Source: Prochlorococcus marinus XMU1405 | GTDB lineage: Bacteria > Cyanobacteriota > Cyanobacteriia > PCC-6307 > Cyanobiaceae | Assembly (NCBI RefSeq): GCF_017696275.1 | Contig: NZ_JAAORF010000002.1 | Coordinates: 310,001 to 374,000, forward strand | Length of the DNA stretch: 64,000 nucleotides | Reading direction: 5' to 3' | In this document: one piece after another, positions 428-41,293 of the stretch | How positions within the stretch are numbered: position 1 is the first letter of the stretch | Layout: the number at the start of each line of letters is the position of its first letter | The notes under the pieces: model-generated | Told to the model about the DNA's origin: nothing | What the model saw: the letters and a program-made list of their open reading frames with translations, nothing else | Databases searched by the model: none | Program-made: the position numbers and the translations under genes

Positions 428-598
428 GAAAAAATTTCCTTTATAAATTTCAACTCAACATAAACTAGCAAAAAAAGTAATCAATTAGGCCTATTTAAGT
501 AAAAGCACTTATTATAAATCAAGAAATAAATAGAAAAAATAAAATCAGCTCCATATCTGAATTTATAATAAAAAAAGATTAAATATATTTAAAATTAT

Positions 599-1606
599 AT
601 GTCTTCAAATATAAGGCTAAAAGGAAGGGGAGTTAACAGGATAATTACGAGTAAGGTCATGCTATCGCCATTGGCAGGAGTTACAGATAACATTTTTAGA
701 CGACTTGTACGTAAATGGGCCCCAAACTCTTTACTTTTTACAGAAATGATAAATGCCACAAGTCTTAAAAAAGGATATGGCACTCAAAAAATCAATCAAA
801 TAGATTTAGAAGAAGGTCCAATTGGAGTACAAATATTTGATAATAGGCCATATGCTGTTTCTGAAGCTGCGAAACAAGCTGAGGACTCTGGAGCTTTCTT
901 AATTGATATAAATATGGGATGTCCAGTAAAAAAAATTGCAAAGAAAGGTGGAGGCAGTGCCTTAATTAAAGACCGAAAACTTGCTATAGAATTAGTCAAA
1001 AATGTTGTAAAAGCTGTTAGTGTTCCAGTAACAGTAAAAACACGACTCGGATGGGATAGTAAAGAAGAAAATATAGAGGATTTCTTATTTAAACTTCAAG
1101 ATGCGGGAGCAACGATGATCACACTTCATGGAAGAACTAGAAAACAGGGTTTTTCAGGAAATTCAGATTGGGAAATGATCGGGAGACTTAAAAAGTTATT
1201 GGAAATTCCAGTAATTGCTAATGGAGATATCAAAAATCCAGATGACGCACTTAATTGTTTAAAAAAAACAAATGCTGATGGTGTAATGATTGGACGAGGA
1301 ATTTTAGGATCCCCATGGAAAATAGGAGAAATAGATTATGCCCTTAGAGATAATAAAAATTTTAAAGAACCAAACACAGAAGAAAAACTATATTTAATTA
1401 TTGAGCATCTTGATGAATTAATAAAAGAAAAAGGAGATCATGGATTGCTAATTGCAAGGAAACATATCTCATGGACATGCAAAGACTTTAAAGGAGCATC
1501 AAATTTGAGAAATAACTTGGTTAGAGCTGTTGATAAAAATGAAGTTAAAAATTTGATAATTAAAATGATTAAAACTTTGAATAATGAAAAAAATAGATTA
1601 GCTTAA
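599..1606 (+). CDS. dusB: tRNA-dihydrouridine synthase
   Basis: This FMN- and NADPH-dependent TIM-barrel enzyme reduces uridine to dihydrouridine in tRNA D-loops. The sequence shows the Dus N-terminal signature MLSPLAGVTDNIFRR (about residues 21-35), the catalytic cysteine in INMGCPVKKI, the substrate and flavin motifs VKTRLGW, LHGRTRKQGFSG and NGDI, and the phosphate-binding GVMIGRGILGSPW. The 335-residue length fits the DusB class. A short N-terminal extension precedes the barrel, so the true start might be slightly downstream. A DUF2470 gene follows 18 bases later and is probably co-transcribed. Confidence 0.93.
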   Translation: MSSNIRLKGRGVNRIITSKVMLSPLAGVTDNIFRRLVRKWAPNSLLFTEMINATSLKKGYGTQKINQIDLEEGPIGVQIFDNRPYAVSEAAKQAEDSGAFLIDINMGCPVKKIAKKGGGSALIKDRKLAIELVKNVVKAVSVPVTVKTRLGWDSKEENIEDFLFKLQDAGATMITLHGRTRKQGFSGNSDWEMIGRLKKLLEIPVIANGDIKNPDDALNCLKKTNADGVMIGRGILGSPWKIGEIDYALRDNKNFKEPNTEEKLYLIIEHLDELIKEKGDHGLLIARKHISWTCKDFKGASNLRNNLVRAVDKNEVKNLIIKMIKTLNNEKNRLA

Positions 1607-1624
1607 AACAAATTTATTTTTTTA

Positions 1625-13127: not shown

Positions 13128-13222
13128 AAAAAAAAAAGACCTCTCAGAGAGAGATCTTTTTAAAATTGATTTATACCAAGTGTTTCCTTGTTTCCACTGA
13201 AATAAATCAATTCCTCCTACAC
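13128..13222 (-). ncRNA. yfr2: Yfr2-family small RNA
   Basis: The minus strand shows the Yfr2 (cyano-1) layout: a 5' segment with GTGTGTAGGAGGAATT, then a stem of ten perfect base pairs (ATTGATTTAT at 13202-13211 with ATAAATCAAT at 13165-13174). The stem encloses two copies of the family hallmark GGAAACA (13189-13195 and 13181-13187). A terminator hairpin and a ten-T run follow. A plausible -10 (TATTAG, 13229-13234) places the 5' end near 13221. Yfr2 RNAs are abundant in marine cyanobacteria, and their purine-rich segment can pair with Yfr1. Which numbered paralogue this is cannot be decided. Confidence 0.8.
13133..13162 (-). terminator. Terminator of the Yfr2-family RNA
   Basis: Hairpin AAAAAGA-C-CTCTC / GAGAG-A-TCTTTTT with one C-A mismatch and a three-base loop. 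On the minus strand it is followed by about ten T. The flanking A and T runs on both sides make it potentially bidirectional. Confidence 0.65.
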
Positions 13223-13296
13223 ACAATCCTAATATCACACCAAAATCCAAATAATGTAATACCTAATAGACCTCTATCTTAACTGTCACATCACAA

Positions 13297-13407
13297 AAAA
13301 TGCAAAAAGTACTCAAACATTGCGATCGAGTACTTTTAAAGTTATCAGAAAAAAGTGTGTGAGGAGTTTCTGATGTATTTAATTTACTCCGTAGGTAATT
13401 TAAAAGG
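13297..13407 (-). ncRNA. Candidate small RNA with Yfr1 signature in a hairpin loop
   Basis: A minus-strand -10 TATACT (13412-13417) is followed by three hairpins. The first is TTTAAATTAC / GTAAATTAAA with one mismatch. The second has an eight-pair stem ATCAGAAA / TTTCTGAT (13374-13367 and 13351-13344) whose loop region displays ACTCCTCACAC, the sequence otherwise diagnostic of Yfr1. The third is a ten-pair hairpin AAAAGTACTC / GAGTACTTTT followed by a T-rich tail. No reading frame of note is present. It lies directly upstream of the Yfr2-family RNA on the same strand. Identity with a named RNA cannot be claimed. Confidence 0.6.
13304..13338 (-). terminator. Terminator of the Yfr1-like candidate RNA
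   Basis: A perfect ten-pair inverted repeat, AAAAGTACTC (13305-13314) and GAGTACTTTT (13328-13337), has a 13-base loop. On the minus strand it is followed by TGC and six T, so termination is likely in that direction. Confidence 0.6.
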
Positions 13408-13487
13408 CTACAGTATAAATTACTAATTATTTAAATCTTTTAAAAAAATTGGAAGTTGATGAAAAAATAATCAAAAACAAAAAATTC

Positions 13488-13852: not shown

Positions 13853-14101
13853 ATGAATTTTATTTTTTCTTTTTTATTAGCATCTGTAATGTGGGTACAA
13901 GTTCCACAATGGGAAGCAGACTGGTCAAAATGTGCTGTAGATGTTCCCGATTCATCGTGTCACTGGTACGTAGCTGCTCCCGATAATACTTTTGGGGAAG
14001 GATTTAATTGGGAAAACGCTCCTTGGTTTAATGCCAATGGATTACAGGATGTAGCTAAAATTGACAAAGAATCTGTAGTAGAAAAACTTCAAAATAACTA
14101 A
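13853..14101 (+). CDS. Trp-rich exported or anchored protein, 82 aa
   Basis: A hydrophobic N-terminus (MNFIFSFLLASVMWVQVP) acts as a signal or anchor. The rest is rich in tryptophan (seven in total) with two cysteines (WSKCAVD and SSCHWYV) and ends with a short helix. The ordered Trp and Cys positions imply a conserved small fold. No family is recognised. It is probably co-transcribed with the preceding microprotein. Confidence 0.5.
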   Translation: MNFIFSFLLASVMWVQVPQWEADWSKCAVDVPDSSCHWYVAAPDNTFGEGFNWENAPWFNANGLQDVAKIDKESVVEKLQNN

Positions 14102-41236: not shown

Positions 41237-41293
41237 AAAAAAGCCCGATTAATCGGGCGATTTAGTGTGTGAGGAGTATGGGGTTTCCCCCAT
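41237..41293 (-). ncRNA. yfr1: Yfr1 small regulatory RNA
   Basis: All hallmarks of Yfr1 are present on the minus strand: a 5' hairpin GGGGGAAACCCC, an unpaired stretch containing the ultra-conserved ACTCCTCACAC (41267-41277), and a 3' terminator hairpin GCCCGATTAATCGGGC followed by six T. The guaB-trxA position is the expected one. Yfr1 is an abundant RNA of about 55 nt that base-pairs with outer-membrane porin mRNAs in Prochlorococcus. The promoter is listed separately. Confidence 0.93.

Follow-up and report, generated by a model that had tools for sequence, protein, structure and literature searches.

A Yfr10-Yfr2 small RNA tandem in Prochlorococcus marinus XMU1405, the probable counterpart of the Yfr18-Yfr5 locus of strain MED4

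The adjacency of the small RNAs Yfr18 and Yfr5 in Prochlorococcus MED4 was reported by Steglich et al. 2008 (PMC2518516), who also gave the base pairing of aCUCCUcACACAC with GUGUGUAGGAG, which is the same pairing as that considered in this work. The MED4 copies of the Yfr10 family were verified as RNAs in that study, with a family RNA length of about 78 nt, and a mutated motif was described for Yfr12. The printed entry for MED4 Yfr18 is complement 972284..972388 (105 nt), with products of 29 and 76 nt. For the sister pair Yfr10-Yfr2, a joint precursor of 270 nt is listed in table footnote e of the same paper.

The interactions of these RNAs were studied with MED4 RNAs by Lambrecht et al. 2019 (PMC6778093), who noted that Yfr10 lies upstream of Yfr2 in high-light strains. 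In their experiments Yfr2 pulled down Yfr1 and Yfr10, whereas in the reciprocal pull-down with Yfr10 only a slight enrichment of Yfr2 was obtained and Yfr3, Yfr4 and Yfr5 were clearly enriched. The binding of the ppa mRNA by Yfr1 and Yfr10 was blocked by Yfr2 in vitro, Yfr1 or Yfr10 protected Yfr2 against RNase E in vitro, and the target sets of Yfr1 and Yfr10 were overlapping but distinct. The competition and RNase E experiments were performed with MED4 Yfr10 and Yfr2, not with Yfr18 and Yfr5, and the evidence with MED4 RNAs comes from cell-free assays and, for Yfr1 with Yfr2 only, from E. coli.

Identity and genomic place of the two RNAs

The window analyzed here is the whole stretch of 64,000 nucleotides of P. 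marinus XMU1405. Its Yfr10 unit, located at positions 13374-13293 of the minus strand, matched the Rfam family RF02362 with 60.7 bits (gathering score 43, E 7.3e-7), and precedes a Yfr2 gene, as in high-light strains. The Yfr2-family (Cyano-1) unit, at 13226-13159 of the minus strand, matched RF01701 with 78.4 bits (gathering score 41, E 3.2e-12) and includes the GGAAACAAGGAAACA loop. The Rfam matches and the exact motif thus bear out the sequence-only reading of this DNA, which had placed an RNA with the Yfr1 signature directly before a Yfr2-family RNA on one strand. All seven of the tested neighbouring ORFs matched the MED4 Yfr18-Yfr5 region, and none of the seven matched the 3.5-4.0 kb stretches around MED4 Yfr10-Yfr2 or Yfr12-Yfr4, from which we infer that the window pair is the Yfr18-Yfr5 locus of a relative. 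Order, strand, flanking genes, loop motif and the complementary 5' end of Yfr2 are the same as in MED4 Yfr18-Yfr5, whereas the sequence differs outside the motif, its partner and the Yfr2 core; the MED4 tandems Yfr10-Yfr2 and Yfr12-Yfr4 have the same architecture at other genomic loci. Very probably, therefore, the pair is the known regulatory pair of high-light-type Prochlorococcus, i.e. a Yfr18 copy directly upstream of a Yfr5 copy, together with its mechanism. The earlier opinion that such a tandem in cis is unusual does not hold, as both the position before the Yfr2 gene and the pairing are in print (PMC2518516, PMC6778093).

The window also contains Yfr1 itself, at 41293-41240 of the minus strand (covariance search, RF01116, 58 bits, E 6.9e-9). 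The string ACTCCTCACAC was found exactly only at 13367-13357, in the Yfr10 unit, and at 41277-41267, within the Rfam match of Yfr1, in agreement with the claim that the real Yfr1 near 41237 has the same signature; when up to one mismatch is allowed, the window has 3 matches, versus 0.30 expected from shuffled sequences. Yfr1, which also binds Yfr2 (PMC6778093), thus shares its 11-nt target-binding motif with the Yfr10 of the window, but at its own locus the motif is predicted to be unpaired between two hairpins, whereas that of Yfr10 is presented in a loop. Despite the identical 11-nt motif, it is hardly credible that the first RNA is another Yfr1, since Rfam assigns it to Yfr10 and its motif is not placed between two hairpins; family score and structure together refute this candidate. 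A mimic of Yfr1 is not a novelty either, because the "mimic" is the named family Yfr10 (Yfr18 copy).

Folds, terminators and possible transcription starts

The motif ACUCCUCACAC (13367-13357, minus strand), identified by exact match, fold and conservation, lies in a hairpin of 8 bp predicted at 13374-13344 of the minus strand, in which the first A of the motif already belongs to the stem and the rest to the loop. Each pair of this hairpin is retained in 80 or 81 of 81 sequences of the same locus type, and as there are so few changes among them, covariation adds almost nothing. It is followed by a terminator-like hairpin with a U-rich sequence downstream (13337-13305, minus strand), which is predicted from the fold and the pairs of which are retained in 73 to 81 of the 81 sequences, although a simple terminator scan did not report this stem. 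At the end of the Yfr2 unit, the scan identified a terminator-like hairpin with a 13-pair stem and a T run (13161-13133, minus strand).

The Rfam start of Yfr10 is preceded, at a distance of 6 nt, by a conserved -10-like sequence TAAATT (13386-13381, minus strand). In an alignment of 81 sequences, five of the six positions of TAAATT are at least 95% conserved, and its mean identity at 52 complete sites is 93%. The Rfam start itself, 13374, agrees with the 5' end published for MED4 Yfr10: in one sampled genome, which was taken as MED4, a Yfr10 match was found at exactly the published MED4 Yfr10 coordinates, 346661-346738. A 5' end of the first RNA near 13374 is therefore better supported than one near 13407, which had been proposed from the sequence and now appears less likely, and a longer transcript is possible. 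The 5' end printed for MED4 Yfr18 is 67 nt farther upstream than the start of the Rfam match there (972321), and fits neither 13374 nor 13407.

Further upstream, an inverted repeat AGTA-N5-TACT (13424-13408, minus strand) runs into TATACTGTAG; it was recognized by its conservation (97% mean identity at the 52 complete sites) and by its fixed distance. The TATACTGTAG-like match ends 33 nt from the start of ATCAG in 74 of the 81 sequences that belong to the window's locus type and in 24 of the 63 that belong to the other, and a strict match is absent from 5 of 81 and 37 of 63 sequences, respectively. This box could be a second promoter, with TATACT as its -10 element and the start at 13407 proposed before, or the site of a regulator. 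Between the two RNAs, upstream of Yfr2, a box TGTGACAGTTAA (13290-13279, minus strand) was also found by conservation, with a mean identity of 98.6% versus 84% in the spacer that follows; it is possibly the published GntR-regulated element CGRE1. As a separate observation, in the 160 bases upstream of the solitary MED4 Yfr3, GTGACA is absent from the strand of Yfr3 and occurs once on the other strand.

A simple sigma-70 scan reported no site at the start of either RNA, and its 3 promoter-like sites are fewer than the mean of 4.4 in shuffled sequences; the promoter-like boxes are consequently proposed from conservation. Each RNA probably has its own promoter. The earlier claim of a terminator and a promoter-like box for each unit is thus supported by a terminator-like hairpin in both cases, whereas the promoter part depends on conservation and has no sigma-70-type site by the scan.

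Conservation and distribution of the tandem

The locus was also followed independently of the RNAs, by using the neighbouring ORF at 13853-14101 to find it in 61 genomes that are at least 85% complete. A close copy of this ORF is present in 53 of them (54 sites); two sites run off the contig, leaving 52 complete sites, and the eight genomes without a close copy are outside this count. An exact partner segment GUGUGUAGGAG is present at all 52 complete sites and an exact motif at 49, and 49 sites have the two in order. The mean identity is 99.5% for the motif, 100% for the partner, and 98% and 95% for the two stem arms, compared with 86% in the DNA immediately upstream (13484-13425), 92% at a greater distance (13700-13500) and 84% in the spacer. 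The sequence-only reading would have been contradicted by a loop that varies while its flanks are conserved; the reverse was observed, the loop being more conserved than any of these flanks.

Similar values had been obtained before from 81 aligned, distinct sequences of the window's locus type, namely 99.7% for the motif, 100% for GTGTGTAGGAG and 86% upstream. Together with 63 of another type, they form a set of 144 distinct tandem sequences, which are mostly the best Rfam matches among those listed, with 18 loci added because they carry a variant motif. The script that collected the tandems accepted only sequences with two intact GGAAACA cores that agreed with a Yfr10 consensus at 12 of 18 positions; as the sequences were picked by RNA score and with intact cores, conservation within this set is inflated. 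All these counts refer to distinct sequences or sites, irrespective of kinship. A Yfr2 is located downstream in 92 of 96 Yfr10 regions (from 150 listed matches), 82 of which were recognized by the script and 10 by eye. The 14 regions outside the 82 comprise 10 tandems with variant cores, 2 without a clear Yfr2, 1 with an unrecognised Yfr10 motif and 1 at a contig end.

The exact tandem pattern was found in all 24 genomes sampled from the genus, and was absent from the 276 genomes that represent 58 other genera of the same family; as the pattern is exact and narrow, the latter is an absence of the pattern and not of Yfr10. A Yfr10 match (E <=0.001) is present in 123 and a Yfr2 match in 131 of 151 sampled genomes of the genus, many of which are incomplete. 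Among the 51 genomes with at least 90% completeness and at most 5% contamination, 49 have Yfr10 and 49 have Yfr2, so that some genomes of the genus yield no match to these RNAs. Genomes G025 (97% complete) and G089 (92%), in which any Yfr10 match is missing, have no close copy of the neighbouring ORF either, and carry no and one Yfr2 match, respectively; they may represent a lineage that lacks this locus.

When named genomes were scanned for the pattern, at least 117 stretches matched. The 80 matches listed include 76 with Prochlorococcus in the title and one from a Synechococcaceae single cell. The other three, which are in bins with other names, and two matches on viral contigs were taken as chance, because neither RNA family reaches its gathering score in them. 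Genomes with any Yfr10 match have from one to six of them. Two partial genomes (G031 and G123) have six Yfr10 matches each, together with six and four Yfr2 matches, which suggests that the tandem may have multiplied in some lineages. On a scaffold of Prochlorococcus HNLC1, two Yfr10-Yfr2 pairs in a row are found within about 1.1 kb (537-1615, minus strand).

Carriage of the pair by phages was considered and rejected: 73 of 50,697 phage records match, and the best 20 of these 73 match only the neighbouring small ORF. This ORF of 82 aa (13853-14101, plus strand) was characterized separately. Its DNA region matches the 73 cyanophage records, and the best 20 of them are 71-74% identical to it over 166-203 bases and are annotated as (carboxyl)esterase, for which 82 aa seems short. 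No Pfam match was obtained for the ORF, and a match to it exists in all 61 sampled genomes of the genus, most of which have a second, more distant copy.

Pairing between the RNAs and the role of adjacency

The segment GTGTGTAGGAG, complementary to the motif of Yfr10 and Yfr1, is located at 13224-13214 of the minus strand, near the 5' end of the Yfr2 unit. The predicted duplex of the motif segment with the Yfr2 5' end comprises 11 bp with one bulged C, at -16.9 kcal/mol, as the sequence-only reading had anticipated (about eleven bases and one bulge). For the whole RNAs, the predicted binding energy of Yfr10 with Yfr2 is -11.0 kcal/mol, compared with a mean of -3.3 in composition shuffles of Yfr2, 1 of 100 of which reached it. 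That of Yfr1 with Yfr2 is -16.6 kcal/mol and was reached by none of 100 shuffles, so that Yfr1 is predicted to be a stronger partner of this Yfr2 than Yfr10 is, presumably because its motif is already open.

The two families, the structure of the RNAs, their complementarity and conservation, and the narrow distribution of the tandem were obtained by computation, and we infer that the copies of this strain act as the MED4 RNAs do. The loop motif of Yfr10 would accordingly bind mRNAs through the motif also used by Yfr1, and the 5' end of Yfr2, whose complementarity to the Yfr1/Yfr10 motif is predicted here and whose binding was demonstrated with MED4 RNAs, would capture this motif and thereby relieve the targets. 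Yfr2 bound to Yfr1 or Yfr10 would in turn be shielded from RNase E. These roles, i.e. targets in common with Yfr1 and pairing with Yfr2, had been suggested from the sequence and match the published work with MED4 RNAs (PMC6778093). As for porin targets, a search of this genome for OprB (PF04966) gave no match.

A second pair was found on contig C3 of the same genome, with a Yfr10-like RNA at 94158-94083 and a Yfr2-like RNA at 93993-93926 of the minus strand. Its motifs are changed to ACUCUUCACAC and GUGUGAAGAGU, which match over 11 bp without a gap. The isolated segments have predicted energies of -16.9 kcal/mol within the window pair and -18.6 within the second pair, versus -14.5 and -13.4 across the pairs, and the whole-RNA binding of the second pair, -15.3, was reached by 6 of 100 shuffles. 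The Yfr10-like RNA of this pair has almost no predicted hairpin (-1.9 kcal/mol). It is a single case, no more than suggestive of mate-specific tuning, and might be new.

Mate-specific coevolution is nevertheless not claimed. Within either locus type, the mates pair no better than shuffled mates, 1004 of 2000 permutations being at least as good in the window's type and 303 of 2000 in the other, and for the Yfr10 segments of the window's type the mean pairing energy is slightly more favourable with Yfr2 of the other type (-17.8) than with Yfr2 of their own (-17.3). There is thus nothing to show that the partner in cis is preferred. This lack of preference would be expected if the adjacency were a relic of duplication, i.e. 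a block that was copied and kept by descent without a function, the RNAs acting purely in trans as a pooled family. The presence of one to six Yfr10 matches per genome having any points in the same direction, as does the alteration of the Yfr10 motif or hairpin in a good many sequences of the second locus type, in which 42 of 63 sequences have the canonical TCCTC core and 41 of 63 fold at -3 kcal/mol or better, although this set, enriched for variants on purpose and restricted to intact Yfr2 cores, cannot show that Yfr2 outlasts Yfr10. The relic explanation is a serious possibility, but we would sooner expect it to be wrong, given that Yfr2 follows in nearly all Yfr10 regions (92/96) and that both motifs are exact at 49 of the 52 complete sites of the window's locus.

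Conversely, the two genes may form a unit, in which read-through yields a joint RNA with the Yfr10 loop motif paired in cis to the Yfr2 5' end, and this self-locked precursor stores or protects Yfr2 until it is cut. The 270-nt Yfr10-Yfr2 precursor listed for MED4 would be such an RNA, but in the parts of PMC2518516 that deal with it no function is reported. In the 276-nt read-through RNA of the window, 9 of the 11 motif positions are predicted to pair with the partner at P >=0.97. In all 81 distinct loci of the window's type and in 56 of the 63 of the other type, the Yfr2 5' segment takes up more than half of the motif's predicted pairing, whereas with a reversed motif this was so in only 24 of 81 and 14 of 63. 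However, the reversed control itself pairs in part, equilibrium folding takes no account of folding during transcription or of the terminator-like hairpin that separates the genes, and pairing in cis follows automatically from a complementarity that exists anyway for pairing in trans. We consider a functional unit unlikely. The folding in cis of the read-through RNA might itself be a new element: no published statement on it was met in the portions of the literature used. It is also conceivable, although quite improbable, that read-through of the Yfr10 terminator locks the motif on its own Yfr2, so that the ratio between free and neutralised sRNA depends on processing or on how efficient the terminator is, and that strains can make the pair in cis private, as ACUCUUCACAC and GUGUGAAGAGU suggest.

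Compared with these alternatives, the pair is best described as the known Yfr18-Yfr5 regulatory pair, in which adjacency may help Yfr10 and Yfr2 to meet. The tandem is real and not new, since it is a known pair in another strain; what is added here is its conservation anchored on a neighbouring gene, its narrow distribution, a better-supported 5' end, and a predicted pairing in cis upon read-through. The analysis sharpens where the RNAs may start, and confirms from sequence alone that a regulator and its likely sponge have remained neighbours in most of one genus of phototrophs that dominates the ocean.
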